This document shows positions 11,576 to 35,957 of a DNA stretch of 35,957 bases, piece after piece. The notes under the pieces are model-generated. The model was not told the DNA's origin and made no database searches. It saw nothing but the letters and a program-made list of their open reading frames with translations. Numbering within the stretch: the stretch's first letter is position 1; the number at the start of each line of letters is the position of its first letter. The translations under genes and the position numbers were made by a program. Source of the DNA: Thauera phenylacetica B4P (lineage in GTDB: Bacteria; Pseudomonadota; Gammaproteobacteria; Burkholderiales; Rhodocyclaceae); the NCBI RefSeq assembly GCF_000310225.1, contig NZ_AMXF01000021.1, positions 1 through 35,957 of the forward strand. The letters run 5' to 3'.

Positions 11576-13441
11576 TCAGATTGCGGGATGCACCGTGATC
11601 ACGGACTTGTCCGCGATGTCGGCATGGAGGAACTCGACCAGGTCGGCACGCCGAGCGAGCGTGAGGCGCTGGTTGATGTAGCCCTTGTCGGTGATTTCTC
11701 CCGCCTCCACGGAGGGCGGCTCGGCCATCAGGAGCGCGCGCGAGGGGTAGGTGGACGTGCCGCCGCCGCCGCTGCGAAGCATCGCCATGCCCTGGCGGAT
11801 GCGACTGCGGATGTCCGGGTTGAGCAGCACGTCCACCAGCGCTGCGTCCGGCGGCAGGCCGGGACACAGGCGGCGACATTCGGGGAGGTTGGGGAAGATG
11901 AGGAAGCCGATCTCGTCGCGGTCGTGGCCGGTGACGACGATGTCCTGCGCGATCGGCTTCATCGCGTCGATGCCGGCGACGCGCAGCGAGCCGACATGGA
12001 CCCAGGTCCCGGTGAGCAGCTTGAAGTCCTCGCCGATGCGACCGTCGAAGCGCAGGCCGAGCTCCGGCCGTTGCGGGTCGACGAACTCGACCGCATCGCC
12101 GATCAGGTAGAAGCCTTCCTCGTCGAAGGACTTCGCGGTGATCTCGGGCTGCTTCCAGTAGCCCGGGAACACGTTCGGCCCCTTTACCCGCACTTCCAGC
12201 TTGTCCGCCGAGGGGACCAGCTTGAGGGAGGTGCCCGGAACCGGCACACCGATCACCCCGGGCCCGATCGCGTCGAAATGGCAGTCGGTGGCCATCGGTG
12301 CGGTCTCGGTCGAGCCCCACGACGACACGATCATGACCTTCCTGCCGGTGGCGGCCTCGGAGAGGTCCTCCAGCGCCGACCAAAGGTGGTGCGGAAGTGC
12401 AGCGCCCGCATAGAAGAGGAATTTGAGCCTGCGGAAGAAGCTCTCGCGCAGGGCGGCATCCTCGCGCAGCAGCGGCACCAGCATGTCGTAGGCGCGCGGG
12501 ACGTTGAAGTACATCGTCGGCGAAACCTCCTTGAGGTTCTTCACCGTGCGCTCGAGCAGCGCCGGGGTCGGCTTGCCGTCGTCGATGTACACCGCGCCGC
12601 CCCAGCGCAGGACCATGTTCAGGTTGTGGTTGCTGCCGAAGGTGTGGCTCCACGGCAGCCATTCGACCAGCACGGGCGGTTCGCCGGCCAGGAAGGGCCA
12701 CATCAGCTCCTTGGCGAGCTGGTTCGAGCACATCATGCGCTGGGTATTGACGACCGCCTTGGGCGTACCCACCGAGCCCGAGGTGAACAGGAACTTCCCG
12801 ATCGTGTCGGGCGTCACCTCTGCGAACGCCGCCATCACGGCGGCCTCGTTCGTGGCGGCCTCGATGCCGGCGAACGCCTGCACGCCGTCGCTCGGCGCGC
12901 TGTTGCCACCCGCCACCACGACGGCGTCGTGCAGCTCGCGGATGGCCTCGAGCGCGGGTGCGAAGCGTTCCGCGGGATCGGCGTAGATGACGCCGGGGCG
13001 AAGCAGCGCGATGTTGCCCTTGAGCTTGGCGAAATCCTTCGACATCAGCGAGTTGCCCGGCGAGATCGAGCACACCGGCACGCCGACGTGCATCGCCGCC
13101 AGCATCAGCAGGGCATGCTCGATCGAATTGTCGGACAGGATCACCACCGGCCGTTCGGCCGAGAGACCCTGCCCGAGCAGCCAAGTGGCGACCGCCACCA
13201 TGCGGCGCCTCGCCTCCCCGTAGGTCAGCCGCGACCAGCCGCCGTCACGATCGCGTTCGGCCAGGAACAGGCGATCGGGCGCGGCCGTTGCCCAGTGCTC
13301 GAACCAGTCGCCCACGCAGCGGGCATAGGTTTCGGGAAAGGGAATTCCCGAGCGCAGCACCTGCGTGCCGTCCGGCCGCCGTTCCACCTCCACGACCGGG
13401 GGGGTGAACATGCGCTCCATCTTCCGGGTATCTGCGGTCAT
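11576..13441 (-). CDS. fcs: Feruloyl-CoA synthase-type acid-CoA ligase
   Basis: A 621-residue AMP-forming ligase. The ATP-binding loop FTSGSVGTPK is at residues 219-228, the A5 motif is SSWGSTETAPM, and a C-terminal GEITDKGYINQR supplies the Lys that completes adenylation. The N-terminal stretch with PPVVEVERRPDGT, ARCVGDWFEHWA and RPVVILSDNSIEHALLMLAAMHVG is typical of the feruloyl-CoA synthase family, which has an unusually long N-terminal part. The ATG at 13441 has a GGAGGG ribosome-binding site with 5-base spacing. It converts a carboxylic acid, probably a hydroxycinnamate or related aromatic acid, to its CoA thioester. It lies 27 bases after the binding-protein gene and begins the enzymatic part of the operon. 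Confidence 0.85.
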   Translation of the reverse strand: MTADTRKMERMFTPPVVEVERRPDGTQVLRSGIPFPETYARCVGDWFEHWATAAPDRLFLAERDRDGGWSRLTYGEARRRMVAVATWLLGQGLSAERPVVILSDNSIEHALLMLAAMHVGVPVCSISPGNSLMSKDFAKLKGNIALLRPGVIYADPAERFAPALEAIRELHDAVVVAGGNSAPSDGVQAFAGIEAATNEAAVMAAFAEVTPDTIGKFLFTSGSVGTPKAVVNTQRMMCSNQLAKELMWPFLAGEPPVLVEWLPWSHTFGSNHNLNMVLRWGGAVYIDDGKPTPALLERTVKNLKEVSPTMYFNVPRAYDMLVPLLREDAALRESFFRRLKFLFYAGAALPHHLWSALEDLSEAATGRKVMIVSSWGSTETAPMATDCHFDAIGPGVIGVPVPGTSLKLVPSADKLEVRVKGPNVFPGYWKQPEITAKSFDEEGFYLIGDAVEFVDPQRPELGLRFDGRIGEDFKLLTGTWVHVGSLRVAGIDAMKPIAQDIVVTGHDRDEIGFLIFPNLPECRRLCPGLPPDAALVDVLLNPDIRSRIRQGMAMLRSGGGGTSTYPSRALLMAEPPSVEAGEITDKGYINQRLTLARRADLVEFLHADIADKSVITVHPAI

Positions 13442-13468
13442 GACGACCCTCCTGCCTGTTCCGGCCAA

Positions 13469-14614
13469 TTACTGTCCGATCATGGAGTAGCCGCCGTTCT
13501 CGATACGGACGAGGACGCGACCCCGCGTGTCGAGACCGAAATGATCCTCGGCGCTCATGTTGTACACACCATGCGCGCCGACGACCTCCTTGTTGGTCTC
13601 GAGGGCGTCGCGCAGGGCCAGGCGAAACTCCGCCGTTCCCGGTGCCGCGGTCTTCAGCGCGACCGGCACGGCCGCCTCGAGCAGCCGGAACACGTCGTGC
13701 GCATGACCGGCAAACGACGAGAAGGTGCCGGCACCGTATTTCTCCTCGTAGCGACGCACGAAGGCCGATCCGATCTCCTTGGACGGATGGTCCGCGGGGA
13801 TCTGGTCCACCACCACGACCGGCCCGACCGGCAGGATCACCCCCTCTGCGGCCTTGCCCGCCACGCTGAGGAAGGCCTGGTTGGCGACCGCATGGGTCTG
13901 GTAGACCTGCCCCTTGTAGCCGCGCTCGACCAGCGTGGTCTGCGGCAGGGCGGCAGGACTGCCGGAGCCGACGACGATGATCGCATCGGGCTTCGCGCCC
14001 ACCAGCTTGAGGACCTGCCCGGTGACGGAGGTGTCGTTGCGTGCGAAGCGCTCGGCCTGCACGATCTTGATGCCGGCCTTCTGCAACAGCGGCTCGAGCG
14101 CAGCCAGCCATTCGTCGCCGTAGGCATCGGCAAAGCCGATGAAGCCCAGCGTCTTCACCCCAGCGGACTGCATGTGACCGACGAGCGCTCCGGCCATCAC
14201 GCTGTTGTGCTGCGGCGTGCGGAACACCCAGTGCCCGCGATCGGCCGGAAGGGTCACCGGCGAGAGCGCGATGTGCGGGGTCCCGGTCTCGAATGCGACC
14301 TGCGCGATCGCGGCACTGGCCGGTGTCACCGCCGAACCCACGAGTACGTCGGCCTTCTCCTCCGAGACGAACTTGCGGGCGTTCTTGGTCGCAGTGGACG
14401 GATCGGAACCGTCGTCGAGGACGACGTAGCGCACCGTCTCTCCCGCGATCGTGGTCGGAAACAGCGCGACCGCATTCTTTTCGGGAATTCCGAGCGAGGC
14501 GCCCGGCCCCGTTGTGGACACGGAAACGCCCACAACCACTTCCGCCAGTGCCGGCGGACTGCCGAGCACGCCGAGGGTGGCACACAGCATTACGAGATTC
14601 TTGATCTTGTTCAT
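13469..14614 (-). CDS. ABC-type branched-chain-amino-acid-like substrate-binding protein
   Basis: A 381-residue periplasmic binding protein of the LivK/HAAT type. It begins with a signal peptide (Lys-rich start, hydrophobic core VMLCATLGVLG, cleavage expected after ALA at residue 24), followed by the type I periplasmic fold. Two adjacent ATGs exist (14617 and 14614). With GGAGGA ending eight or so bases away, the second has the better spacing. Such proteins bind aromatic and other carboxylates as well as amino acids. No Liv-type permease or ATPase gene is in the window, so it is an orphan that must use a distant transporter or serve as a sensor. It leads the fcs operon, which suggests that its ligand is the pathway substrate. 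A 9-bp palindrome sits just upstream of its ribosome-binding site. Confidence 0.88.
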   Translation of the reverse strand: MNKIKNLVMLCATLGVLGSPPALAEVVVGVSVSTTGPGASLGIPEKNAVALFPTTIAGETVRYVVLDDGSDPSTATKNARKFVSEEKADVLVGSAVTPASAAIAQVAFETGTPHIALSPVTLPADRGHWVFRTPQHNSVMAGALVGHMQSAGVKTLGFIGFADAYGDEWLAALEPLLQKAGIKIVQAERFARNDTSVTGQVLKLVGAKPDAIIVVGSGSPAALPQTTLVERGYKGQVYQTHAVANQAFLSVAGKAAEGVILPVGPVVVVDQIPADHPSKEIGSAFVRRYEEKYGAGTFSSFAGHAHDVFRLLEAAVPVALKTAAPGTAEFRLALRDALETNKEVVGAHGVYNMSAEDHFGLDTRGRVLVRIENGGYSMIGQ

Positions 14615-14636
14615 CATCCCTCCTCCTGATTGCGAA

Positions 14637-23775: not shown

Positions 23776-24525
23776 ATGCGACTTGAGGGAAAAACAGCGG
23801 TAGTCACCGGCGGGGCGTCCGGTATCGGTCGTGCAACGGCCGAAACCCTGGCGGCGGCCGGCGCACATGTGGTCATCGGCGATCTCGACCAGGACAAGGG
23901 CGCGACGGTCGCCGCCGCAATCCGCGATGGTGGCGGCAAGGCCAGCTATTTCTCGCTCGACGTCACCAGCCAGGACTCGGTCGGTGCGTTCGCCAGGAGC
24001 GTGGAAACCCAGGGGCTGGAGGTCGACATCGTGGTCAACGTCGCCGGCTGGGGAAAGATCCAGCCCTTCATGGAGAACAGCCCCGATTTCTGGCGCAAGG
24101 TCATCGACCTCAACCTGCTCGGGCCGGTCCTCGTCACCCACGCTTTCCTCGGCGGCATGATCGCCCGCGGTCGCGGCGGCAAGGTCGTCACCGTGGCGAG
24201 CGACGCCGGCCGCGTGGGCAGCAGCGGCGAGACGGTCTACTCGGGGGCCAAGGGCGGCGCGATCGCCTTCGGCAAGGCGCTTGCCCGCGAGATGGCGCGC
24301 TACAAGATCAACGTCAATAGTGTCTGCCCCGGCCCCACCGACACTCCGCTGCTTGCCGCCGTGCCGGAAAAGCACCAGGAGGCCTTCGTCAAGGCCACGC
24401 CGATGCGCCGCCTCGGCAAGCCGAAGGAGATCGCCGACGCGGTGCTGTTCTTCGCCAGCAGCGACTCCGACTTCATCACCGGCCAGGTGCTGAGCGTCAG
24501 CGGCGGCATGACCATGGTCGGCTGA
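23776..24525 (+). CDS. SDR dehydrogenase, BadH-like (2-hydroxycyclohexanecarboxyl-CoA dehydrogenase type)
   Basis: A 249-residue short-chain dehydrogenase. The NAD-binding motif is TGGASGIG, and the catalytic YSGAKGG supplies Tyr and Lys. Several stretches recall Rhodopseudomonas BadH, which oxidises 2-hydroxycyclohexanecarboxyl-CoA: an AGW motif in the NNAG position, [32 protein letters not shown] and the end [16 protein letters not shown] chose the ATG at 23776, which begins [13 protein letters not shown] and has GGAG nine bases before it. It opens the seven-gene operon, whose promoter carries operator site 4. An alicyclic or branched 3-hydroxyacyl-CoA substrate is therefore plausible. The similarity is judged by eye and needs alignment. 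Confidence 0.82.
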
Positions 24526-24562
24526 ACGCCAGACCTCCCCCACTCGAACCCTGGAGACAGAA

Positions 24563-25381
24563 ATGTACAAACTGAAAGCCGCCGACTGGCATCCCGAGCA
24601 CTTCAAGCTGGAAGTGGCCGACCGTGTCGCCACCATCACGCTGAACCGCCCCGACCGCAAGAACCCGCTGACCTTCGAGAGCTACGCGGAACTGCGCGAC
24701 ACCTTCCACAAGTTCCAGTACGTCGACGACGTGCGCTCGATCGTGATCACCGGCGCCGGCGGAAACTTCTGCTCGGGTGGCGACGTGCATGACATCATCG
24801 GGCCGCTCACCAAGATGGACATGAACGGGCTGCTCACCTTCACGCGCATGACCGGCAACCTCGTCAAGGAGATGCGTACCTGCCCGCAGCCGATCATCTC
24901 GGCGATCGATGGCATCTGCGCCGGTGCCGGCGCGATCGTCTCCATGGCCTCGGACATGCGCTACGCCACGCCGGACGCGAAGACCGCCTTCCTGTTCGTG
25001 CGTGTCGGCCTCGCCGGCTGCGACATGGGCGCCTGCGCGATCCTCCCGCGCATCATCGGCCACGGCCGGGCCTCCGAGCTGCTCTACACCGGCCGGGTCA
25101 TGAGCGCGCAGGATGGCCTCGCCTGGGGTTACTTCAACGACGTCGTCGCGCCCGATCAGGTCCTCGCCAAGGCCCGGGACATGGCCCTTTCGCTGGCGAA
25201 CGGCCCCGCCTTCGCCCACGCCATGACGAAGAAGTGCCTTCACCAGGAATGGGACATGAGCATCGAGCAGGCGCTGGAAACAGAAGCCGAAGCCCAGGCC
25301 ATCTGCATGCAGACGCAGGATTTCACCCGCGCCTACAATGCCTTCGTGGCCAAGCAGAAGCCGGTGTTCGAAGGCAACTGA
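24563..25381 (+). CDS. Atypical crotonase-family protein lacking both hydratase glutamates
   Basis: A 272-residue crotonase-fold protein with the usual oxyanion segment ([10 protein letters not shown]). The positions of the two hydratase glutamates hold Ile125 (GAGAIVSM) and Phe145 (TAFLFVRVG), so ordinary water addition is unlikely. An Asp (D154 in LAGCDMGAC) lies where MenB and the ring-cleaving BadI carry a functional Asp. I recall very similar proteins next to 2-aminobenzoyl-CoA or salicylyl-CoA gene clusters, where they are annotated only as enoyl-CoA hydratase family. It starts 37 bases after the BadH-like gene, with GGAGA ahead of the ATG. Possible roles are C-C bond hydrolysis, isomerisation or ring cleavage. 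The function is not established. Confidence 0.85.
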
Positions 25382-25390
25382 CGGCGGACC

Positions 25391-25421
25391 GGGGCGGGCC
25401 ATGCCCTGGCGCGCCCGCCCC
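25391..25421 (+). other. Intra-operon hairpin between crotonase and second SDR
   Basis: Perfect 9-bp arms GGGGCGGGC (25391-25399) and GCCCGCCCC (25413-25421) with a 13-base loop, ten bases after the upstream stop codon. There is no T-run. It may stabilise or process the mRNA, or reduce read-through. Confidence 0.4.
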
Positions 25422-25468
25422 GACGGATCACGGAACCCGATTCACCCCGACTGCAAGGACGGCTGTCG

Positions 25469-26251
25469 ATGAACGCCACACCAGCATTGAGCGGAAGACA
25501 CGCGGTGATCACGGGCGGTGGACGCGGCATCGGCGCTGCGATCGCACGTGCCCTGGCCGAGCAGGGTGCCAGGGTGACCTTGATGGGAAGGACGCTGGCC
25601 CCCCTGGAAGAACAGGCCGGCGCGCTGCGCGAGATCACCGAAGTCCATTGCGAGCGTGCGGACGTCGCCCGCCCCGACTCGGTCGACGCCGCATTTGCCG
25701 GCGCCGTCGCACGACTCGGCCGGGTGGACATTCTGGTCAACAACGCCGGCCAGGCGCTCAGCGCCCCCTTCGTCAAGACCGAATTCTCGCTCTGGCAGCA
25801 GATGCTGGATGTCAACCTCACCGGCGTCTTCCTCGGCACGCGCGCGGTCCTTCCCGGAATGCTGGAGGCGGGCTGGGGGCGGGTCATCAACGTCACCAGC
25901 ACCGCGGGACAGAAGGGCTATCCCTACGTCAGCGCGTATTGCGCGGCGAAGCACGGGGTGATCGGCCTGACCCGGGCGCTCGCGCTCGAGACGGCGAGGA
26001 AGAACGTCACGGTCAACGCCGTCTGCCCGGGCTACACCGACACCGACCTCGTGCGCGACTCGATCGCGAACATCGAGGCCAAGACCGGGCGCAGCCATGC
26101 CGAGGCGCTGGCCGAGCTGACCCGATTCAACCCCCAGGGCCGCCTGATCGATCCCGGCGAGGTCGCCAACGCCGCACTCTGGCTGTGCCTACCGGGCTCG
26201 GAGGCGATTACCGGCCAGTCGATCTCGGTGTGCGGCGGCGAAGTGATGTGA
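25469..26251 (+). CDS. SDR family 3-hydroxyacyl-CoA dehydrogenase
   Basis: A 260-residue short-chain dehydrogenase with TGGGRGIG for NAD binding, NNAG, a Ser in INVTSTAG and the catalytic YCAAKHG. The C-terminus ITGQSISVCGGEVM is the usual SDR ending. This is the second SDR of the operon, 87 bases after the atypical crotonase. Two SDRs in one operon suggest two separate hydroxyacyl-CoA oxidations, for example before and after ring opening. The segment SNIEAKTGRS-like insertion before FNPQGRLIDPGE is also seen in hydroxyacyl-CoA dehydrogenases of aromatic gene clusters. The substrate is unknown. Confidence 0.87.
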   Translation: MNATPALSGRHAVITGGGRGIGAAIARALAEQGARVTLMGRTLAPLEEQAGALREITEVHCERADVARPDSVDAAFAGAVARLGRVDILVNNAGQALSAPFVKTEFSLWQQMLDVNLTGVFLGTRAVLPGMLEAGWGRVINVTSTAGQKGYPYVSAYCAAKHGVIGLTRALALETARKNVTVNAVCPGYTDTDLVRDSIANIEAKTGRSHAEALAELTRFNPQGRLIDPGEVANAALWLCLPGSEAITGQSISVCGGEVM

Positions 26252-26314
26252 TGCGGGCAACGGTGCCGGCACCGCCGCGAAAGCGGCCGATTCAATGAGC
26301 GAATGGAGCATGCA

Positions 26315-27481
26315 GTGAGCGACAAATCCTATCTCGAGTGGCCCTTCTTCGAGGAGCGTCACCGCAAGCTGGAAGCCGAGCTCGACGCATGGGCCCGGGA
26401 CAATGTCACCGCGGAACATGGTGATCTCGACTCCGCCTGCCGCGAACTGGTCGCCAAGCTGGGCGCCGCCGGCTGGCTGCGCTACAGCGTCGGGGGCACG
26501 GCCTACGGCGGCGCGCACGAAACCATCGACACGCGCTCGATCTGCCTGCTGCGCGAGACCCTCGCGCGCCACTCGAGCCTGGCCGACTTCGCCTTCGCGA
26601 TGCAGGGCCTGGGCTCCGGCGCGGTGACGCTGTATGGCAACGACGAGCAAAAGCGCCGGTATCTCACCCGGGTCGCCCGCGGCGAGGCCTTGCCCGCCTT
26701 CGCCCTGTCCGAACCGGGTTCCGGCTCGGATGTCGCGGCGATGGCCTGCAGTGCCCGCCTGGACGGCGACCACTACGTGCTCGAAGGCGAGAAGAGCTGG
26801 ATCTCCAATGGGGGCATCGCCGACTTCTACGTCGTCTTCGCACGCACCGGCGAGGCGCCGGGCGCGCGCGGCCTCTCCGCCTTCATCGTAGATGCGGACA
26901 CCCCCGGACTCGAGATCGCCGAGCGCATCGAGGTGATCGCCCCCCACCCGCTCGCCCGCCTGCGCTTCACCGACTGCCGGGTTCCCCGGTCGGCGATGCT
27001 CGGCACTCCCGGACTTGGCTTCAAGGTGGCGATGCAGACCCTCGACATCTTCCGCACCTCGGTGGCGGCCGCGTCGCTGGGTTTCGCCCGCCATGCCCTC
27101 GACGAGGCGCTGCGCCGCGCCACCACCCGGGACATGTTCCAGCAGAAGCTGGCGGACTTCCAGATCACCCAGGTCAAGCTCGCGCAGATGGCGACCAGCG
27201 TGGACAGCTCCGCCCTGCTGACCTACCGCGCCGCCTGGCGCCGCGACCAGGGTCACAAGGTGACACGCGAAGCCGCGATGGCCAAGATGACCGCGACCGA
27301 GAGCGCACAGCAGGTCATCGACGCCGCGGTGCAGATCTGGGGCGGCTGCGGCGTCGTCAGCAACCATCCGGTCGAACGCCTGTATCGTGAGATCCGCGCG
27401 CTGCGCATCTATGAGGGCGCGACCGAAGTGCAGCAGCTGATCATCGCCCGGCAGACGCTCAAGGCCTACGAAGAGGGCTGA
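26315..27481 (+). CDS. Acyl-CoA dehydrogenase
   Basis: A 388-residue flavoprotein of normal length. It has the FAD/substrate motif [13 protein letters not shown], the loop KSWISNGG, and a C-terminal [16 protein letters not shown], where Glu is the expected catalytic base. Two starts are possible: an ATG at 26303 and a GTG at 26315. I prefer the GTG because GGAG (26305-26308) lies six bases before it and the protein then begins (M)[12 protein letters not shown], which is how relatives start. It is the fourth gene of the operon, 63 bases after the second SDR. The likely step is dehydrogenation of an alicyclic or short aryl-acyl-CoA. An electron-transfer flavoprotein acceptor is not encoded here. 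Confidence 0.9.
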
Positions 27482-27532
27482 GCGCGCCCCGGGCAGCGAA
27501 TGCCGCAAGCCGTGCCTCGATCCCGGGCACCC

Positions 27533-27576
27533 GGCACGCCGAGGGCGTGCCGCGGTCCGCGGACGAAGCCCTCGGC
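27533..27576 (+). other. Competing hairpins between acyl-CoA dehydrogenase and ligase genes
   Basis: Two overlapping perfect stems: GGCACGCC/GGCGTGCC (27533-27540 with 27544-27551) and GCCGAGGGC/GCCCTCGGC (27538-27546 with 27568-27576). They cannot form together. They lie 30-60 bases before the ligase start in a 127-base gap, the longest within the operon. Confidence 0.4.
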
Positions 27577-27608
27577 GCCGATCGAAACCGTGTTTCGGAG
27601 CACGCACC

Positions 27609-29177
27609 ATGCCTGAAGAACTGCAGCCACAACACACCATGAACGCCGCCGACGAGATCATCGGCCGAGCCATCGGACGAGGCCTGGGCGAGCAGACCGC
27701 CATGCTGTGCCGCGAACGCTCGACGAGCTATCGCGAACTCGACGCCGCGACCAACCGCAATGGCCACGCCCAGCGCGCCAATGGGGTCGGTCGTGGCGAC
27801 CGCATCCTCATCCTGATGGACGACTCGCCCGAGCTCGCCGCGGCCTATCTCGGCGCGCTGCGCATCGGCGCGGTCGCGGTCGCGCTCAACGTGCGCCTGG
27901 CCCCGCGCGATCTCCTCTACGTCATCCAGGACAGCGCCTGCAAGCTGCTCTACGTGGATGCGGAGTTCCTCCACCTCTATGAACAGATCGTCGGCGAACT
28001 CGCCGCGCCGCCGCAGGTGGTCGTCCGCGGCGGCGAGGCAAGCGCCCCCGCCCTGACACTGGAGCGCTTCCTCACCGACCAGCCCGAGACGCTCGAATCG
28101 GTGCAGGTCGATCCCGAAGAAATGGCGTTCTGGGTGTATTCGTCGGGCACCACCGGGCGCCCGAAGGCGGTGGTGCACGGGCACCGCTCCGTGCTCAACA
28201 GCGACCAGATGGAGCGCGAGTACTTCGGTGTCCAGCCCGGCGACCGCGTGTACAACACCTCCAAGCTCTTCTTCGCGTGGTCCCTCGGCCACTCCCTGCT
28301 CGGCGCCCTGCGTTGCTGCGCGACCGTGATCGTCGCCCCCGGCTGGCCCGACCCGGAGAACGTACTCGCCACGGTCGACCGGCATCGCCCGACCATCCTG
28401 TTCAGCACGCCCGTGATGTATCGCAACCTGTTGCGCGAGGGTGCGGCGAACTCGGCCGGCATGCGCGGCGTCCGCCATTTCGTGTCGGCCGGCGAGAAGC
28501 TGCCCGAGAACATCGCCCAGCAGTGGGCGGACAACTTCGGCGTCCCCATCTGCGAGGGGATCGGCGCTTCGGAGACCATCTCCCTCTTCCTGTCTTCGCA
28601 TCCCGATGCCCACCGGATAGGCTCCTGCGGCAAGCGCGTCCCGTGGGCGGAGGTCCGCCTGATCGACGAGTCTGGCGAGGAGATCACCACTCCCGACACG
28701 CCGGGGGTGATCGCCATCCACACCGACTCGCAGCTCGTCGGCTATTGGAACCTGCCCGACACCACGGCGAAGGCCTTGCGCAGCGGCTGGTACTACCCCG
28801 GCGACATGTTCAGCTTCGACGCCGACGGTTTCTGGTACCACTGCGGGCGGGCGGACGACATGCTCAAGATTTCCGGCCAGTGGGTGAGCCCTTCCGAAAT
28901 CGAGAGCTGCGCCGCCACCGTGCCCGGCGTCGGCGAGGCGATCGTGGTGGCCGAACCCAACGAAGACGGCCTCACCCGCCTCGCGCTGTTCGTCGTTCCC
29001 AAGGACGAGTGGGTGAACCCACGCAAGCTGGAAGAGGAGCTGACCACGACCCTGCGCAACACGCTGTCGATCTACAAGTGTCCGCGCACGATCCGCTTCC
29101 TCGAGGAACTGCCCCGCACAGCGACGGGCAAGGTGCAGAAGTACCGCCTGCGCGAGTTCCTGCGCGCGCAAGCCTGA
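27609..29177 (+). CDS. Benzoate-CoA ligase family acid-CoA ligase
   Basis: A 522-residue AMP-forming ligase with the ATP loop YSSGTTGRPK at 177-186, the A5 motif GIGASETISLF, GDMFSFDADGFWYHCGRADDML for the hinge region, and the C-terminal catalytic Lys at 508 (TATGKVQK). Length, SAGEKLP and KISGQWVSPSEIE fit the benzoate-CoA/2-aminobenzoate-CoA ligase family rather than the Fcs-type enzyme at 11576. It activates a carboxylic acid, probably aromatic or alicyclic, at the expense of ATP to AMP. A GGAG site lies eight bases before the ATG. It is the fifth gene of the operon. Its presence means this operon has its own entry step, independent of the fcs operon. Confidence 0.88.
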   Translation: MPEELQPQHTMNAADEIIGRAIGRGLGEQTAMLCRERSTSYRELDAATNRNGHAQRANGVGRGDRILILMDDSPELAAAYLGALRIGAVAVALNVRLAPRDLLYVIQDSACKLLYVDAEFLHLYEQIVGELAAPPQVVVRGGEASAPALTLERFLTDQPETLESVQVDPEEMAFWVYSSGTTGRPKAVVHGHRSVLNSDQMEREYFGVQPGDRVYNTSKLFFAWSLGHSLLGALRCCATVIVAPGWPDPENVLATVDRHRPTILFSTPVMYRNLLREGAANSAGMRGVRHFVSAGEKLPENIAQQWADNFGVPICEGIGASETISLFLSSHPDAHRIGSCGKRVPWAEVRLIDESGEEITTPDTPGVIAIHTDSQLVGYWNLPDTTAKALRSGWYYPGDMFSFDADGFWYHCGRADDMLKISGQWVSPSEIESCAATVPGVGEAIVVAEPNEDGLTRLALFVVPKDEWVNPRKLEEELTTTLRNTLSIYKCPRTIRFLEELPRTATGKVQKYRLREFLRAQA

Positions 29178-29244
29178 GTCCGGGCCCGCGGCGCCCCGGT
29201 CGGGTGCGTCGCGCTTTCGCCACCCCCCTCGAAGGAAGTCCCCC

Positions 29245-30015
29245 ATGAGCGCAGTCCTGGTCGAGCAGCCCACGCCGGAGATCGCCCTTGTCCGCCTGAA
29301 CCGTCCCGAGGCGCGCAACGCCCTGGACCAGGAAACCCGCGGCCAGCTGGCCGAGCACTTCGACCGCCTCGGCCGCTCCGGCGAAGTGCGCTGCATCGTC
29401 CTCACCGGGGGTGAGCGCTGCTTCGCGGCTGGCGCCGACCTGCGCGCGCTGGCCGAGGCCGGCGCGATCGAGATCCTGCTGCGGCAAACCCATCGCCTGT
29501 GGCAGACGATCGCCAGCTGCCCCAAGCCCATCATCGCCGCGGTCAACGGCTATGCGTGGGGCGGCGGTTGCGAGCTCGCCATGCACGCGGACATCATCGT
29601 CGCCGGAGAAGGCGCCTCGTTCTGCCAGCCCGAGGTGAAGGTGGGCATCATGCCCGGCGCGGGCGGGACGCAGCGCCTGACGCGGGCGGTGGGCAAGTTC
29701 CAGGCGATGAAGATGGTCCTCACCGGCCTCCCCGTGAGCGCCGCCGAAGCCCTCGCCATGGGCCTGGCCAGCGAGGTCGTCGCGGACGCCGCCGTCCAGG
29801 CGCGCGCGCTCGAGCTCGCCCGTCACATCGCCGCCCTGCCCCCGCTGGCCATCGCGCAGATCAAGGAGGTGCTGCTCGCCGGCCAGGACGCCTCGCTGGA
29901 GACCGCGCTGATGCTCGAGCGCAAGGCCTTCCAGCTGCTGTTCGCGAGCTCGGACCAGAAGGAAGGCATGCGTGCCTTCCTGGACAAGCGCCCTGCCGTG
30001 TTCCACGGGCATTGA
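29245..30015 (+). CDS. Enoyl-CoA hydratase (classical)
   Basis: A 256-residue crotonase with textbook motifs: GGGCELAMHADI containing E110, FCQPEVKVGIMPGAGGTQRL containing E130, and the C-terminal end with EGMRAFLDKRPAVFHGH. All residues for syn-hydration of an enoyl-CoA are present. It resembles both PaaF-type hydratases and BadK. It starts 67 bases after the ligase gene, with GAAGGAAG ahead of the ATG. Together with the two SDRs and the acyl-CoA dehydrogenase it gives the operon a nearly complete beta-oxidation set, but no thiolase. Confidence 0.92.
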   Translation: MSAVLVEQPTPEIALVRLNRPEARNALDQETRGQLAEHFDRLGRSGEVRCIVLTGGERCFAAGADLRALAEAGAIEILLRQTHRLWQTIASCPKPIIAAVNGYAWGGGCELAMHADIIVAGEGASFCQPEVKVGIMPGAGGTQRLTRAVGKFQAMKMVLTGLPVSAAEALAMGLASEVVADAAVQARALELARHIAALPPLAIAQIKEVLLAGQDASLETALMLERKAFQLLFASSDQKEGMRAFLDKRPAVFHGH

Positions 30016-30067
30016 GCCAGACCCCGGGCTCGGGCATCCTTCGAAAAAAACTGCGCCAGACCCCCCA

Positions 30068-30577
30068 ATGACGAAGACACCGGCCGCCCCTCGCCCCTAC
30101 GACCACTTTGCCAGCCCGATCGACGACCGCTATTTCGAGGACTACGTCCCCGGCGCGGTGCATCGCTTCGGCGAGATCCGCGTCACCGCGCAGGACATCA
30201 TCGATTTCGCCCGTCGCTACGACCCGCAGGACTTCCACACCGACCCCGAAAAGGCGGCGCAGACGATCTTCGGCGGGATCATCGCCAGCGGCTGGATGAC
30301 CGGCTCGCTGATGATGCGGATGTACGCGGACCATTACCTCACCCACAACGCCAGCCTGGCCTCGCCCGGCATCGACGAGTTGCGCTGGCCCGCCCCGGTG
30401 CGTCCCGGCGACGTGCTCGGCACGCGGGTCACGATCGTCGAGGCACGCCGCTCGACGACCAAGCCCGACCGTGGGATCGTGCGCTCGAAGATCGAGGTGC
30501 TCAACCAGCGCGACGAGGTGGTCATGAGCATGCTCGCGATGAACCTCATCGCCTGTCGCACGCCCTCTCCGGCGTAG
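30068..30577 (+). CDS. MaoC-like (R)-enoyl-CoA hydratase
   Basis: A 169-residue hot-dog-fold protein. The hydratase-2 motif is present: D52 and H57 in YDPQDFHTDP, followed by IFGGIIASGWMTGSLMMR. The family hydrates enoyl-CoA with R stereochemistry, though some members act as thioesterases or dehydratases on branched acyl-CoA. The ATG at 30068 is the natural start, since family similarity begins at residue 11. No clear Shine-Dalgarno precedes it, so it may rely on coupling with the upstream hydratase (52 bases away). It is the last gene of the operon and converges with dctP4. Having both a crotonase and a MaoC hydratase suggests two different enoyl-CoA intermediates. Confidence 0.85.
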   Translation: MTKTPAAPRPYDHFASPIDDRYFEDYVPGAVHRFGEIRVTAQDIIDFARRYDPQDFHTDPEKAAQTIFGGIIASGWMTGSLMMRMYADHYLTHNASLASPGIDELRWPAPVRPGDVLGTRVTIVEARRSTTKPDRGIVRSKIEVLNQRDEVVMSMLAMNLIACRTPSPA

Positions 30578-30680: not shown

Positions 30681-31715
30681 TCAGGGGGCGGAATGCTTCG
30701 CGAGCAGGCGCCGCGCCTCGTCCAGCATCTCCTGTCCCGGATAGCCCTTCGCGGTTACCTCGCCCACCCATTCAACCGCGATCTTGTCCCCGACGGCTCG
30801 CCAGCTCGCCGTTTCGGACGCGGGAATGGAATTGAACTGGTTGCCGTTGCCGACCGCGAGCTGGCGCGCCGGGGCGGCGGACTCGTCCCACGCCCTGCCG
30901 ATCGCCGCCGACAGCGCGACCCCCGAGTTGGCGTCGATCACACGCTTCAGCTCGGGGGGCAGGCCTTCGTATCTCGCCTTGTTCATGGCGAGCACGAATA
31001 CCGCGGTATAGAGCGCAGGCTCGCCCGCGGCGGTTTCCGAATGGTAGCGAGTGAGCTCGTGCAGCTTCATCGCCGGCACGATCTCCCAGGGCAGCAGGTA
31101 GCCATCGACCACGCCCTTGGACACGGCCTCCACGACCGCCGGCATCGGCATGCCGACCGCCGAGGCACCGAGCTGGGACAGCATCCTGTTGGTCAGCCGG
31201 GTCGGCGCCCTCATCTTCAGTCCCTTGAAATCCGCCATCGTCCGAATCGGATGGCGATTGTTGTGGGCTTGTCCGTTGTCATGCACATGGAACGCAAGCG
31301 GTTTCACCTGGGCGAAATCGCCCGCGCCGTATCTTTCGTAGTACTCCCACAGCGCACGGGAGGTGGTCTCCGCCTTCCTGGACATGAAAGGCAGCTCGAA
31401 CACCTCGACGGAAGGGAAGCGCCCGGGGTTGTAACCCGGCAGCGTCCAGCCGATGTCGGCGATCCCGTCGACGACCTGCTGGTAGACCTGCGCCGGCGTC
31501 CCGCCGATCTGCATCGCCGGATAGATCTGGCACTTCATCCGGTTGTCGGACTCGGCAGCGATCTTTTCGCACCACGGGACGATCTGTCGGTGTCCCAGCG
31601 CCGCCGTGGGCCACATGTGCGAAACCTTCAGAATCACCTCTTGGCTTTGCGCAGCCGTGGAAGAAAGTGCGGCCGTCATCGCGACCAGACCGGCCCCAAG
31701 GTATCGTCTCTGCAT
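30681..31715 (-). CDS. dctP: TRAP transporter substrate-binding protein (DctP), paralogue 4
   Basis: A 344-residue DctP protein with a signal peptide (MQRRYLGAGLVAMTAALSST, cleavage near AQSQ). The core YPAMQIGGTPAQVYQQVVDG and KMRAPTRLTNRMLSQLGASA is related to, but clearly more divergent than, the three paralogues at 16-22 kb. I chose the ATG at 31715, which starts the signal peptide and has GGAG nine bases upstream. It follows the methylenetetrahydrofolate reductase gene by 43 bases and so belongs to the C1 operon. This links uptake of a specific carboxylate with the methyl-transfer enzymes, which is a strong hint that the ligand is a methoxylated or N/S-methylated acid. No membrane subunits are next to it. 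Confidence 0.9.
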   Translation of the reverse strand: MQRRYLGAGLVAMTAALSSTAAQSQEVILKVSHMWPTAALGHRQIVPWCEKIAAESDNRMKCQIYPAMQIGGTPAQVYQQVVDGIADIGWTLPGYNPGRFPSVEVFELPFMSRKAETTSRALWEYYERYGAGDFAQVKPLAFHVHDNGQAHNNRHPIRTMADFKGLKMRAPTRLTNRMLSQLGASAVGMPMPAVVEAVSKGVVDGYLLPWEIVPAMKLHELTRYHSETAAGEPALYTAVFVLAMNKARYEGLPPELKRVIDANSGVALSAAIGRAWDESAAPARQLAVGNGNQFNSIPASETASWRAVGDKIAVEWVGEVTAKGYPGQEMLDEARRLLAKHSAP

Positions 31716-31758
31716 TTTTCGTGTCTCCTCGCTCTTGCCACGCTGGATGGAACGCCGA

Positions 31759-33210
31759 CTAACCCCGTGGCCCGGGTAGTCCTGGAAAACCGCCTCCCGC
31801 CGCACCGCCGCCAGTCCGTGCGGGCAATCCTGCCCGGCGGATGATGTCCGCCAGGGCCTCCTCGTTCCTGTGCCCCATCAGGTGGATGCCGGCCACGCCC
31901 TCGATGCCTCGAATCGCCTCGATCGTCTCCAGGCACACGCGTGCGGCCTCGGCCTTCTGGTCGGTCGCGCTGCCGATGCGCTGGAGTACGGCCTCGGGAA
32001 CATGGACGCCGGGCACGTGTGCCCCCATCCAGCGCAAGGCCTTTGCCGAGGACAAGGTGCCGACGCCGACGAGGATGTGCGCCCGGCGATGCAAGCCGCG
32101 GGCGCGGACGCCGTCCATGAAGGCCTCCAGCAGCGGCAGGTCGAAACAGAACTGGGTCTGGATGAAGCACGCGCCGGCGACGACCTTCTTTTCCAGATTG
32201 GCGATGCGGTCGACGAAGGGTGGCACGAAGGGGTTGCAGGTCGCGCCGATGAACAGCCGGGGCGCACTTTCGAGCTTGCGCCCGGAGGCGAATTCGCCCC
32301 GGTCGACCATGCCCCGAGCCACGTGCAGCAGGGACACTGCATCCAGATCGAACACCGGCTTGGCCTGGGGGTGATCGCCCTGGCTGACGTCATCGCCGGT
32401 AAGGCAGAGGATGTTCTTCACCCCCAGCGCCGCCGCCCCGAGGATGTCGCCCTGAATGGCGATGCGGTTGCGGTCGCGGCAGGCGACCTGATACACCGGG
32501 TTGAAGCCCGCATGGGCGAGGATGGCCGAGGCGGCCACGCTCGACATGTGGCAGTTGCCCCCGGCGCCATCGGTGACGTTCATCGCATCCACCAGTCCGC
32601 GGAAGCGCTCGGCGCGGGCCAGCAAGACGGACGGATCGGCGGAATCCGGCGGCGCGATCTCGACGGTGACGACGAAGCGGCCCGAGCGGCAGGCCGCCTC
32701 CAGCGCGCTCTCCTCGGCCTCCCGGGTGGAATCGTGCGCGACCGGCGGCTGGAACGCAGGCTCCTTGTGACCATGGATGACCTGGATCCAGGTGGACTGC
32801 CCGCGCCTGCGCTGGTCCACCGCGGGCAGCAATGGCGTGGGGTGGGCCTTGTGGTCGGGCGCGATCCGCTTGGTGCCCGCGGTGGCCTCGACCCAGGCGC
32901 AGCGCATCTCGGGCCGGACTTCGCAATGACCGTCGGGCCGCACGCCACCGCAAGGGCCGTTGCGCATCTCCTTCGCGCAGTTCATCGGGCAGGCCATGCC
33001 GGTGGCCGAGAGCACGCACTGACCGCACATCCTGCAGTCGAACAGGAAGCCCTTGGCGTGGCGTTCCAGGGGACGCAGCACCGCGGCGGTCCGGTCGACA
33101 CCGAGGACCCGGGCTACGGGCCGCATCAGGGGGGCGAGCCGGGAGAAGAGCTCGTAGAGGCTCCTCAGCCGACGCGCATGGCGCACGGACCACAGACGGA
33201 CGCGATACAT
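31759..33210 (-). CDS. Methylenetetrahydrofolate reductase with N-terminal Cys-rich (MetV-like) domain
   Basis: A 483-residue fusion. Residues about 55-110 hold eight cysteines (59, 62, 65, 74, 78, 87, 96, 104), typical of the MetV/MTHFR-C metal- or Fe-S-binding domain (PF12225 type) that accompanies MetF in acetogens. Residues about 175-440 are a MetF TIM barrel with the expected Glu (E184 in TVEIAPP), Asp (D273 in CLTGDD) and Gln (Q353 in IQTQFCFD). The reaction is interconversion of methylene- and methyl-tetrahydrofolate. In this operon it would probably run in the oxidative direction, passing methyl groups from the corrinoid/pterin methyltransferase into the C1 pool. The ATG at 33210 starts family-like sequence and has GGAG 11 bases upstream. 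It begins 73 bases after the amidohydrolase gene. Confidence 0.87.
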   Translation of the reverse strand: MYRVRLWSVRHARRLRSLYELFSRLAPLMRPVARVLGVDRTAAVLRPLERHAKGFLFDCRMCGQCVLSATGMACPMNCAKEMRNGPCGGVRPDGHCEVRPEMRCAWVEATAGTKRIAPDHKAHPTPLLPAVDQRRRGQSTWIQVIHGHKEPAFQPPVAHDSTREAEESALEAACRSGRFVVTVEIAPPDSADPSVLLARAERFRGLVDAMNVTDGAGGNCHMSSVAASAILAHAGFNPVYQVACRDRNRIAIQGDILGAAALGVKNILCLTGDDVSQGDHPQAKPVFDLDAVSLLHVARGMVDRGEFASGRKLESAPRLFIGATCNPFVPPFVDRIANLEKKVVAGACFIQTQFCFDLPLLEAFMDGVRARGLHRRAHILVGVGTLSSAKALRWMGAHVPGVHVPEAVLQRIGSATDQKAEAARVCLETIEAIRGIEGVAGIHLMGHRNEEALADIIRRAGLPARTGGGAAGGGFPGLPGPRG

Positions 33211-33283
33211 CAGGCCGGCACTCCGTCCGTCCCGCGTACGGCGCGTCCGCGGGACGCTCGCGCACGCCGCGCGACAGGGCGCG

Positions 33284-34516
33284 TCATGCCTCGGCGTCCT
33301 CTCGGCCTGCCGGCGCGCACGCCGGGTCGGGCGGCGCGGTCCACGCGCGCAGGGGCTTGCGCAGCGCACCGATGTCGGCGAACGGCGAGCGTTCGAGCAA
33401 CATCGCATCGAAGGGCGCACCACGCTCCAGGCGCGGACGGGCGTGGCCGAAATGACGGCGCGCGGCGGCGGTGGCCGACTGCAGCACTTCCAGGGTAGAC
33501 AGGCCGGCCTCGAGGTAGCGTGCGATCTCCTCATGCACCGCGTGCCCATGCTCGACTCCCATGCTGCCGGCGTCGGTGCCGAACAGCAGTCGCACCCCCA
33601 GCTCGCGCGCGATCAGCAGGTGGCGGGCGTGTTCGTCGAGAATGCGGCGCAGATTGCCCACGGTCTGCGCCGACCACCCCACCGCCTCGGGGTGCGCCCA
33701 CTGGAAATGCACCGGGCAGAAGGTCGGCGTCCAGGCCACGTCGTGCTCGGCCATCCGCGCGAGCAGGTCGCGGCGCATGAAGAAGCCGTGCTCGATCGAA
33801 CCGACCCCGGCGCGGGCGGCGATCTCGAGTCCGGTGGCCCCGCTGCAATGGACCATGGTCTTGCGCCCGCAGGCGCGCGCGCTATCGACCACCAGGCGCG
33901 TCGCGGCGAGGTCGAACTGCGGCTCGTCGGTGACCGCGCCGGCCTCGAAGTCGATGATCCCGGTCAGGATCAACTTGATCTCGTCGCTGTCGCGCGCCAG
34001 TTCGCGCACCGAGTCGCGGATCGCGGCGTCGTCGGCGACGTCGCGCGCCATGAAGGCGCCGTAACGCTTGGGGCGCTTGACCCCGAGCCCGGCCGAGCGC
34101 ACCCGCGCCAGCGCAGGATCGGCCGCGGCCTCGTCGCGCAGACGGTGGTTGATGCCGTGGCGGTCGCCCGCGTCGCGCACCAGGGTCACGCCGCACGCGA
34201 GCGCCTGGCGGGCGCTCGCGCGTGCCGTGTCGAACAGCGCTTCCACCGGCTTCTTGAGATGGGCTGCGCGCTGCGCGCCGTCGGTGGGAGCGCCGTCCAG
34301 AAACAGATGGACGTGGGCATCGACCAGCCCGGGCAGCACGAAGCCGCCGCGCAGGATCTCCATTCCCTGGGTGGCGAGCGTCGCACCGAAGTCGCCCGCG
34401 ACGATGTCGCTGATCCGGCCGTGCTCGATGCGGAAGGTGAAGGGGCCGTGCGCGTGCAGGCGCTCGCCGTCGAACCAGCCGTCGGCGACGATGGCGAAGC
34501 GATCGGTCGGCGTCAT
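33284..34516 (-). CDS. Amidohydrolase family protein
   Basis: A 410-residue metal-dependent hydrolase with the usual TIM-barrel ligands: HVH at 68-70 (LVDAHVHLF), a candidate bridging Lys in DEIKLILTG, His in TMVHCSG, His in GSIEHGFF, and Asp in LLFGTDAGSMG. The N-terminal beta domain and the ending ERGAPFDAMLL are typical of imidazolonepropionase/dipeptidase-like amidohydrolases. Its ATG follows the methyltransferase stop by just two bases, so it is part of the C1 operon. The function is unknown. Candidates are a folate-linked hydrolase (for example opening of methenyl-tetrahydrofolate) or hydrolysis of an amide or lactone of the imported substrate. Neither is shown by the sequence. Confidence 0.85.
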   Translation of the reverse strand: MTPTDRFAIVADGWFDGERLHAHGPFTFRIEHGRISDIVAGDFGATLATQGMEILRGGFVLPGLVDAHVHLFLDGAPTDGAQRAAHLKKPVEALFDTARASARQALACGVTLVRDAGDRHGINHRLRDEAAADPALARVRSAGLGVKRPKRYGAFMARDVADDAAIRDSVRELARDSDEIKLILTGIIDFEAGAVTDEPQFDLAATRLVVDSARACGRKTMVHCSGATGLEIAARAGVGSIEHGFFMRRDLLARMAEHDVAWTPTFCPVHFQWAHPEAVGWSAQTVGNLRRILDEHARHLLIARELGVRLLFGTDAGSMGVEHGHAVHEEIARYLEAGLSTLEVLQSATAAARRHFGHARPRLERGAPFDAMLLERSPFADIGALRKPLRAWTAPPDPACAPAGREDAEA

Positions 34517-34518
34517 GT

Positions 34519-35406
34519 TCAGGCCTTGTAGAGCTTGCGCACCGCACGCAGCGCGTTGCTGCCGGTGGTGCCGAGGAAGTTGCGGTAGGCGGTGAGCACG
34601 TAGTCGTCCTCGGGCAGCGGCGCGTAGCCGCGCCACGGGGTACCGAGCACGGTGTCGAAGCCGTACGGCACCGCCAGGGTGAGGAAGGCGTTCTCCAGCC
34701 CGTGCTTGAGGTCCGAGCCGTCGGCGGCCCTGACCGGGAGCTGCTGGCCGATGTTGGACAGTCCGCCCATCATGTGCAGGCCTTTCAAGTCCGGGTCGGC
34801 GCCGATCAGGCGCACCGCGTCGAGGGTCGCGCGGTTCAGACCCTCCGTATCGGCGATGATCGCGCTCACCGACAGGTCCACGAAGACATGATCGAGCGGC
34901 ATGCGGTACTCGTCGCGCAGGCGCAGCGCGGCACGCCGCGCGGTCGCGGCGATGTCCTCGGCAGTCTTGTTGTTCATCGCCACCCCGTCGATGACGCGCT
35001 CGGAGGCCATCACCATGACCCGGAACGGCAGGTCGCGGTAGAGCTGCATCGCCTCCCAGCGGTGCTCGGTGATCGAATTGACGATCGCCAGCTCGCCGCC
35101 GGCGCGGCCGCGGTCGTAGGTGGTGAGGCACAGCGCGAAGAGCTCGGCGGTGGGCACGTCGAACGACAGCGGCACCGTAACCACGTCCTGGATGGCGCGG
35201 ATCACATCGACCAGAAAGCCGCGGTCGGTCATCGCCTGCGGGCCGATGTTGACGTTGAGGGCGAAGGCGCCGGCCTCGACCTGCTTGAGCGCGAGCGCCT
35301 GGATGGCGCCGAGGTCCTTGTCCTCGAACATCGCCCGCGTGCTCTTGAAGCCCGGATTGATGCGCTCGCCGATGATGCGGATGCCAAAGCGGTTGGTTTC
35401 GTTCAT
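34519..35406 (-). CDS. Pterin-dependent (tetrahydrofolate) corrinoid methyltransferase, AcsE/MtvA-like
   Basis: A 295-residue protein of the dihydropteroate-synthase/pterin-binding fold. The motifs IGERINPG at the start, ALNVNIG, AIVNSIT, VDLSVSAI and MMGGLSNIG match methyltetrahydrofolate:corrinoid methyltransferases (AcsE, MtvA, MtgA) rather than folate-synthesis FolP. FolP is shorter and has a different sulfonamide-binding loop. It transfers a methyl group between a corrinoid protein and tetrahydrofolate. I chose the ATG at 35406 because it gives the family N-terminus and overlaps the upstream RACo stop by four bases (ATGA). The corrinoid partner is not in the window. With the activator and reductase it forms the core of an O- or N-demethylase system. 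Confidence 0.88.
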   Translation of the reverse strand: MNETNRFGIRIIGERINPGFKSTRAMFEDKDLGAIQALALKQVEAGAFALNVNIGPQAMTDRGFLVDVIRAIQDVVTVPLSFDVPTAELFALCLTTYDRGRAGGELAIVNSITEHRWEAMQLYRDLPFRVMVMASERVIDGVAMNNKTAEDIAATARRAALRLRDEYRMPLDHVFVDLSVSAIIADTEGLNRATLDAVRLIGADPDLKGLHMMGGLSNIGQQLPVRAADGSDLKHGLENAFLTLAVPYGFDTVLGTPWRGYAPLPEDDYVLTAYRNFLGTTGSNALRAVRKLYKA

Positions 35407-35957
35407 GACGGACTCTCTTCGGTGACGGTTCTTGGAGAAAGGGCGCAGACGGGGGGGGAGGCGGAATCGGAAGCGGGGGCGAAGCCGATGTGGCCGAGAA
35501 AGACCTTCTGGAAGTCGGCGCGCGCGTTGAGCGCGCACGCGCGACTCGCGCGCGCCAGTTCGCGCGCGCGGGCGCGCTCGACGCACGACAGCAGCAGCCG
35601 GCGCACGCCCTCGCCGGCGGCGTTGCCGACCTGGACGAAGCGCTCGCGCGGCAGCGGCGGGAACAGGCCGATCTCGATACCGCTCGCGATGTCGATATAG
35701 GCGCCGAAGGCACCCGCAAGGACGAAGCGCTCGATGCTGTCCGCGGCAAGCCCGGCCTCGGCCAGCAGCAACTCGGTGCAGCTGCGGATGGCGGCCTTGG
35801 CCAGCTGCACCGCGCGCACGTCGGCCTGGGTGAACAGCACCTCGGGTGCGAGCCGCGCGGCCCGCTGCCCGCCCTCGTCGGTGACGATGTCGGGGTGATC
35901 GGCGCGCAGGCGGCCGCGCGCATCGACCAGGCCGCCGCGGCGCAGCGCGGCCACGGT
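35403..35957 (-). CDS. RACo-type reductive activator of corrinoid proteins, C-terminal part (partial)
   Basis: The frame is open through the right window edge; only the last 180 or so residues are present. The segments VQLAKAAIRSCTELLLAEAG, FVLAGAFGAYIDIASGIEIG and FVQVGNAAGEGVRRLLLS match the DUF4445/ASKHA C-terminal domain of RACo proteins. RACo proteins use an N-terminal [2Fe-2S] ferredoxin-like domain and ATP to reduce inactive Co(II) corrinoids to Co(I). That N-terminal domain would lie beyond the edge. It overlaps the methyltransferase gene by four bases. Its presence implies an oxygen-sensitive corrinoid enzyme in this organism and so anaerobic or microaerobic methyl transfer. Confidence 0.85.
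   Translation of the reverse strand, partial: TVAALRRGGLVDARGRLRADHPDIVTDEGGQRAARLAPEVLFTQADVRAVQLAKAAIRSCTELLLAEAGLAADSIERFVLAGAFGAYIDIASGIEIGLFPPLPRERFVQVGNAAGEGVRRLLLSCVERARARELARASRACALNARADFQKVFLGHIGFAPASDSASPPVCALSPRTVTEESPS

Follow-up and report, generated by a model that had tools for sequence, protein, structure and literature searches.

The window analyzed here is the whole of contig NZ_AMXF01000021.1 (C21, 35,957 nucleotides), one of the 681 contigs of the 5.0 Mb genome of Thauera phenylacetica B4P, and its right end carries part of a corrinoid- and folate-dependent methyl-transfer operon. Five genes follow one another on the minus strand: a reductive activator of corrinoid proteins (RACo; 35403..35957; PF14574 RACo_C_ter, 6.8e-34), reduced to its final 184 codons because the contig ends inside the gene; a pterin-binding methyltransferase (methyltransferase II, MT-II; 34519..35406; PF00809 Pterin_bind, 3.5e-7, over cut-off); directly after it, an amidohydrolase-family hydrolase (33284..34516; PF01979 Amidohydro_1, 4.2e-21); a MetV-MetF fusion, MetVF (31759..33210; PF12225 (DUF5981), 3.8e-24, and PF02219 (MTHFR), 8.3e-30, scanned as a slice without the final 39 codons, stop counted); and a DctP-type solute-binding protein of the tripartite ATP-independent periplasmic (TRAP) transporters (30681..31715; PF03480 DctP, 1.6e-44; closest PDB entry 5im2, 1e-98). 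The genes are separated by a 4-base overlap and then by gaps of 2, 73, and 43 bases. An earlier reading made from the sequence only had named these five genes, in this order, on a single strand with overlaps or short gaps, and the Pfam matches and coordinates confirmed all of it.

The individual products fit such an operon. Over 189 residues, the window’s RACo shared 76% identity with a full-length RACo encoded at a locus of a same-genus genome (L018 of G012). In the 98% identical copy at a second locus of that genome (L017), Pfam recognized the Fer2, linker, middle, and C-terminal domains, the linker slightly below cut-off. MT-II matched PRK07535 (methyl-tetrahydrofolate:corrinoid protein methyltransferase) at 2.2e-27, below the model’s cut-off, and its relatives in the PDB were MeTr enzymes, methionine synthases, and 4o0q; it would be expected to move a methyl group from a corrinoid protein to tetrahydrofolate. 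The MetV-MetF fusion, 76% identical to its L018 homologue over 464 residues, would be expected to oxidize methyl-tetrahydrofolate to methylene-tetrahydrofolate. The amidohydrolase contains the motifs HxH, IKL, HCSG, IEHG, and GTDAG, which we take to be the family’s metal site. Elsewhere in the window (16113-21550), three DctP paralogues, 64-67% identical to one another and 46-49% identical to the operon’s DctP, surround a single DctQM pair named by eye.

A DNA search of the window genome with a relative’s operon located a further part of the system on contig C193, where positions 5774-7846 were 90% identical to one G012 operon; the contig itself ends at 7846. The final two genes at this 3′ end encode a corrinoid protein (5792-6472; 90% identical to the L018 copy), which reads GDLHDIG and so contains DxHxxG, the motif of corrinoid (B12-binding) proteins, and a 422-residue methyltransferase of the uroporphyrinogen decarboxylase (UroD) fold (6469-7737; 94% identical to the L018 copy). 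A corrinoid protein and a substrate methyltransferase of UroD or MttB type had been predicted just beyond the right edge of the window. Both are present in the same genome, and in same-genus relatives they lie directly upstream of the same genes, with the methyltransferase being UroD-fold rather than MttB-type, so the findings named in advance as contrary to the prediction did not appear. With both in place, the genes make up a corrinoid methyltransferase system that feeds tetrahydrofolate. The window’s RACo end matches the same G012 operon about 2.1 kb beyond the C193 match, which suggests that C193 and C21 join as one operon with about 2.1 kb missing between them; the missing stretch would be expected to encode the greater part of both RACo and a 224-residue protein. 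The window genome gave a single UroD match and a single methyltransferase match of the operon kind. Pfam revealed no MttB-fold methyltransferase I (MT-I) among the genes of L017, L018, or the window’s operon, a scan that did not extend to MttB genes elsewhere in the genome, and the MT-I found is a URO-D protein.

Complete versions of the operon occur in the same genus. In G012, a genome of two contigs, and G025, a genome of one contig, MetVF, the corrinoid protein, the UroD enzyme, the 224-residue protein, RACo, MT-II, and the amidohydrolase form a single operon. The two G012 cassettes (L017 3389-10276 and L018 4029-10886) have identical activation-like (224-residue) proteins, methyltransferases, and amidohydrolases and UroD enzymes that are 62% identical, the second set also including a FolD gene; they may have arisen by duplication or conversion not long ago, each with a substrate enzyme of its own. 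Pfam found B12-binding, URO-D, and RACo domains, MTHFR with MetV, and FolD in the relatives’ operons. PF01208 (URO-D) was over cut-off in four homologues (L017, L018, L020, and L021), PF02310 and PF02607 in the corrinoid proteins of L017, L018, and L021, and the Fer2, middle, and C-terminal RACo domains in L017, L020, and L021. We scanned 49 loci, 31 of which hold both RACo and the pterin methyltransferase. Among these 31, the corrinoid protein, UroD enzyme, and activation-like protein occur together in 27, the amidohydrolase lies immediately downstream of MT-II in 27, MetVF is present in 25 (one a fragment), and DctP in eight, the window locus counted. The loci are mutually related, so these counts are not independent, and loci without a part often stop at a contig edge.

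The 224-residue protein (L018:6003-6677 and homologues), encoded between the UroD enzyme and RACo, has a conserved C-terminal cysteine cluster and no match in Pfam or NCBIfam. A profile of 11 homologues matched the methionine synthase entry 1j6r (5.5e-4), and we therefore read the protein as MetH-activation-domain-like. The amidohydrolase follows the pterin methyltransferase even in a metagenome-assembled genome (MAG) outside the proteobacteria (L053, Planctomycetota, 10867-12141), and likewise in L054 (4242-5834). From this and its motifs we would guess at a role in the folate branch, with the protein as a candidate folate hydrolase; we know of no described role for an amidohydrolase in corrinoid systems. 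In NCBIfam, none of the UroD enzyme, the activation-like protein, and the amidohydrolase matched a model above its cut-off, and an Rfam scan of seven loci returned solely tRNA and rRNA, with no riboswitches. A different corrinoid system was seen at L022 (genome G046, 3137-12771), comprising TRAP DctM, an oxidoreductase dependent on flavin adenine dinucleotide (FAD), a UroD enzyme of 361 residues, RACo, MetVF, and a protein resembling DUF1638; several of these names were assigned by eye.

Used as a query, the UroD enzyme matched 20 of 346 genomes of the family at 1e-40, in 10 of 68 genera; these 20 carriers include the window genome and one distant 29% match (G703). Several carriers have multiple copies, with five match rows in G594 (two partial), four in G034, and three in G496. 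Wider samples gave two carriers among 399 genomes of the order at 1e-40 and two among 369 of the class at 1e-80, the window genome counted in each. Among the named loci with the operon are those of a Sulfuritalea MAG (L056), a Sterolibacterium MAG (L041), Burkholderiaceae, Terriglobia, and a Geobacter MAG. Plasmid records gave zero matches to the UroD enzyme at 1e-20.

Neighboring genes in relatives tie the operon to aromatic O-demethylation. A Rieske gene of the VanA/DdmC class is present in seven of the 31 loci and a vanB-like gene in five. A Rieske oxygenase gene and one for a vanB-like reductase lie directly before MetVF at L160, L164, L165, L166, and L167, with a GntR gene between the two at L165 and L166, and the oxygenase of L045, in the same place as that of L160, has as its best PDB match the dicamba O-demethylase DdmC (2e-56). 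Rieske demethylases release formaldehyde, and at L177 a glutathione-independent formaldehyde dehydrogenase (over the fdhA_non_GSH cut-off) is placed between a VanA-like gene and the adjoining pair of MetVF and a corrinoid-protein fragment, with GntR also present. L161 is arranged in the same way; its dehydrogenase was identified by eye because the start is nearly identical. At L165, a Sulfuritalea MAG, the genes ahead of vanA include LigA and PobA, each above an equivalog cut-off, and LigB, above the cut-off of its subfamily, and the operon is followed by DctP, a triosephosphate isomerase (TIM)-barrel hydrolase named by eye, and a feruloyl-CoA-synthetase-like ligase below cut-off. An alphaproteobacterial MAG (L051, Rhodospirillaceae) has the whole row of GntR, a VanA-like gene, MetVF, corrinoid protein, two UroD enzymes, activation-like protein, RACo, MeTr, and amidohydrolase. 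Searching 19 of the 20 carrier genomes yielded 17 VanA-class matches in 12 genomes, of which eight lay within 6 kb of a UroD gene, compared with 0.12 expected under chance placement, kinship ignored. A ninth (L177) adjoins the pair of MetVF and corrinoid-protein genes, and its contig has no UroD match. The VanA-class genes had no NCBIfam model over cut-off. Plasmid records contained VanA-class matches in 183 cases, and 14 of the 15 listed were annotated as ring-hydroxylating dioxygenases, so the plasmid annotations do not sharpen the VanA-class name. The sequence-only reading had presented the corrinoid route as an alternative to VanAB. The route itself gained support, but in several relatives VanAB-type genes and the operon stand side by side.

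Most carrier genomes also have genes of the benzoyl-CoA reductase type. PF06050, a family that includes benzoyl-CoA reductase subunits, matched 18 of the 20 carriers compared with 62 of the 326 non-carriers (80 of 346 overall; one-sided Fisher test, 9e-11, kinship ignored). In the window genome (G000), the PF06050 matches are bcrC and bcrB, with bcrA after and oah before them, each over its equivalog cut-off. The same genome has four cytochrome-d1 matches (PF02239), which point to denitrification.

The AlphaFold model of the Sulfuritalea copy of the UroD enzyme (L056; predicted local distance difference test score, pLDDT, 89; predicted template modeling score, pTM, 0.87) matched UroD decarboxylases and the MtaA-type entries 4ay7 and 4ay8 at 13-18% identity among the 50 best Foldseek matches, in a library that ends in April 2026; CdmB, the chloromethane dehalogenase, was not among them. 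The model fits the UroD family and says nothing on substrate. The tree did not place the window’s UroD enzyme inside a vanA-linked group.

Gene content, order, and families, together with the association of the operon with O-demethylase and ring genes in relatives, point to anaerobic corrinoid O-demethylation of methoxylated aromatic acids in a denitrifying bacterium with the benzoyl-CoA pathway, with the operon’s downstream half in the window and its other half on C193. We consider this interpretation highly probable. It agrees with the earlier suggestion of corrinoid demethylation of lignin-type acids, which is supported by the Rieske O-demethylase, formaldehyde dehydrogenase, pobA, and ligAB neighbors in relatives and by the benzoyl-CoA reductase and cytochrome-d1 genes of the genome itself. 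Vanillate or a close methoxybenzoate is the most likely substrate, although the exact substrate of the window’s copy is something we infer, as are each reaction and its direction and the role under anoxia. The most likely mechanism, put together from the operon’s components and from what is known of the chemistry of related systems (PMC13222342), would begin with ATP-driven RACo, perhaps aided by the MetH-activation-domain-like protein, reducing the corrinoid protein to Co(I). On the UroD-fold methyltransferase, Co(I) would then take the methyl group off the methoxylated aromatic acid and leave a phenol. The pterin methyltransferase would pass the methyl group from the corrinoid to tetrahydrofolate, the MetV-MetF fusion would convert methyl-tetrahydrofolate to methylene-tetrahydrofolate, and FolD-type steps would carry the latter towards formate and CO2, with nitrate as the final electron acceptor. 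The hydroxylated acid could proceed through CoA ligation to benzoyl-CoA reductase, and the TRAP protein probably imports the acid.

A broader proposal seems to us about evenly balanced between right and wrong. Under it, denitrifying Sulfuritalea relatives and some alphaproteobacteria would possess a two-way island, using VanAB with oxygen and the adjacent corrinoid demethylase without it, under common GntR-type regulators and with common ring genes. The amidohydrolase would be dedicated to the folate one-carbon branch, for example as a methenyl- or formyl-tetrahydrofolate hydrolase, methoxy groups would be converted to CO2 by denitrification, and the window’s bacterium would keep the oxygen-free half alone.

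Several observations weigh against O-demethylation as the operon’s function. The join of C193 to C21 would span about 2.1 kb that is absent from the assembly. The transfer of a methyl group from a methoxyaromatic to the corrinoid is itself a predicted step, and only some relatives show the operon together with genes for O-demethylase, formaldehyde dehydrogenase, pobA, and ligAB: 24 of the 31 loci have no VanA-class gene (some are short of flanking sequence), and VanA went without a match at 1e-40 in the window genome, so that no vanA lies beside its operon. On the tree, the window’s UroD enzyme and two same-genus copies form their own branch, its position among the others undecided, and the vanA-linked copies are scattered, with at least five label changes, a number as low as that in eight of 500 shuffles. 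The association statistics ignore kinship, two carriers (G454 and G717) have no PF06050 match, PF06050 also matches the control genomes of E. coli and M. jannaschii, and PF02239 matches two control genomes, in one of them over cut-off. The motif E-X14-E-X20-H, the zinc motif of some O-demethylases, is absent from all 36 UroD sequences. We do not treat it as defining because O-demethylases with and without zinc are reported in PMC13222342, the Moorella O-demethylase among those without. The nearest solved relative of the UroD enzyme in the PDB is CdmB (9.5e-35 with the L018 copy, 1e-53 with a profile), and CdmB does not accept methoxyaromatics (PMC13222342). Published labeling can be read in two ways. 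Stable-isotope probing with 13C-veratrate in an anoxic well marked Sulfuritalea as one of three dominant labeled groups, Pseudomonas (<1.1% of labeled sequences) being the only known degrader (PMC10602745). The operon in a Sulfuritalea MAG, which is not the labeled strain, offers one possible explanation of that label; the authors treat Sulfuritalea as an autotroph dependent on veratrate-stimulated bacteria, so cross-feeding could also explain it (PMC10602745).

Two further gene clusters in the window may bear on the choice of substrate. Convergent to the operon on the plus strand (23869..30577) are a short-chain dehydrogenase/reductase (SDR), an enoyl-CoA hydratase, a second SDR, an acyl-CoA dehydrogenase, an HbdA-type 3-hydroxybenzoate-CoA ligase (27609-29177; NF053567, 1047 against a cut-off of 1000), an enoyl-CoA hydratase, and a MaoC dehydratase. 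PRK08138 scored 423 here, over its cut-off of 355, and Pfam found MaoC and ECH domains; the genes at 23869-27481 were named by eye from their translations. The minus-strand cluster at 6899..14617 comprises an acyl-CoA dehydrogenase, an SDR, a thiolase, an enoyl-CoA hydratase, a feruloyl-CoA-synthetase-like ligase, and an ATP-binding cassette (ABC) transporter binding protein. Acyl-CoA dehydrogenase models matched at 6899-8710, all below their cut-offs, and the ligase (11576-13441, PRK12582-type) reached 763 bits, slightly below the subfamily cut-off of 777; the other names were given by eye. Either cluster may be functionally linked to the operon. The fcs-type ligase operon noted earlier in the window is thus present, at about 17 kb from the methyl-transfer genes and just under cut-off, but the ligase that adjoins these genes is HbdA-type. 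At 3247-6786, a gene pair for N-acetylglutaminylglutamine synthetase and amidotransferase, each exceeding its NCBIfam cut-off, represents a route to an osmoprotectant.

Because an HbdA-type ligase adjoins the operon, 3-methoxybenzoate (m-anisate) offers itself as an alternative substrate within the O-demethylation interpretation: its demethylation would supply 3-hydroxybenzoate to the ligase, which is over the HbdA cut-off. The window’s UroD enzyme also lies outside the vanA-linked subclades, in a genome where VanA went unmatched at 1e-40. However, the same-genus genomes G012 and G025 have 94% identical UroD enzymes in other neighborhoods, so the closeness of operon and ligase may be accidental, and we regard this special case as possible yet doubtful. 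A more distant alternative is a chloromethane (haloalkane) dehalogenase system like CdmBCA, in which the UroD enzyme would channel a methyl halide to Co(I), with oxidation of the methyl group again left to the downstream genes of the operon. The rank of CdmB as closest solved relative speaks for it, but this rank says little, since our PDB searches with the UroD enzyme surfaced no solved methoxyaromatic O-demethylase MT-I for comparison; CdmB is moreover placed close to the O-demethylases, nearest to MtoB at 31% identity (PMC13222342). Dehalogenation would leave unexplained the Rieske O-demethylase, formaldehyde dehydrogenase, pobA, ligAB, and fcs-like neighbors in relatives, the several paralogues in some genomes, and the tie to benzoyl-CoA reductase, which makes it improbable. 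Least probable is a quaternary-amine or methylamine system of the glycine betaine type, a specificity named in the sequence-only reading as one that would speak against demethylation of aromatic acids. The best NCBIfam models for the corrinoid protein are MtgC and MtbC, both far below their cut-offs, but the substrate enzyme is UroD-fold (PF01208, and the AlphaFold model with its UROD-type matches) and not MttB-fold, and in relatives the neighboring genes belong to aromatic-acid metabolism.

Lignin decay yields methoxylated aromatics in large amounts, and their oxygen-free demethylation is known at the enzyme level from acetogens, Desulfitobacterium, and archaea. A title in reference lists, Taylor 1983, reportedly concerns anaerobic vanillate catabolism by Pseudomonas PN-1, said to proceed by nitrate respiration, and reference lists also give Mechichi 2005 (Thauera Cin3,4) and Sperfeld 2018 (Sulfuritalea). 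Sperfeld 2018 may already describe the present system in Sulfuritalea, and Taylor 1983 the phenotype. In the titles and abstract starts of open-licence literature, we found among the matches listed no description of corrinoid O-demethylation in denitrifiers, Thauera, Aromatoleum, Sulfuritalea, or Betaproteobacteria, and no enzyme for anaerobic vanillate catabolism in a denitrifier. Methyltransferase genes inferred to act on methoxylated compounds are reported from peatland MAGs of many bacterial phyla, with expression by Acidobacteriota and of MttB-type genes by Proteobacteria (PMC10805028); as annotations, therefore, genes of this kind outside the acetogens are already on record. The operon described here, which also occurs in complete genomes of the same genus, provides candidate genes for anaerobic demethylation in a denitrifier. 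It raises the prospect that denitrifiers respire methyl carbon from lignin, which would then not become acetate or methane.

Among known systems, VanAB and the dicamba demethylase DdmC share the presumed substrate class, and such genes are adjacent to the operon in some relatives. They need O2, release formaldehyde, and use no corrinoid, and the window genome has no match to them at 1e-40. CdmBCA of Acetobacterium dehalogenans resembles the system in its UroD-fold MT-I, the closest solved relative found, and differs in its haloalkane substrate and in that the cluster as named, cdmBCA, does not include the activator (PMC13222342). Archaeal Mto methoxydotrophy (Methermicoccus) likewise combines an MtvB-related MT-I, a corrinoid protein, and an activator for methoxyaromatics, in an archaeal host where the methyl group is proposed to enter tetrahydromethanopterin and methane (PMC8630106). 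A parallel in overall design is offered by the Mtv, Odm, and Vdm O-demethylases of acetogens and Desulfitobacterium, which have a UroD-superfamily MT-I, a corrinoid protein, MT-II, and an ATP-dependent activator and pass the methyl group to tetrahydrofolate (PMC13222342); MtvB, OdmB, and VdmB were compared by their published description. Unlike them, the present operon includes a MetV-MetF fusion together with a MetH-activation-like protein, an amidohydrolase, and, at some loci, DctP. Its host, judged from gene content, is a denitrifying proteobacterium with a benzoyl-CoA pathway, and O2-dependent demethylase genes stand alongside it in some relatives. The parts are thus of known kinds, and what appears new is the host, the make-up of the operon, and its pairing with VanAB in some relatives.

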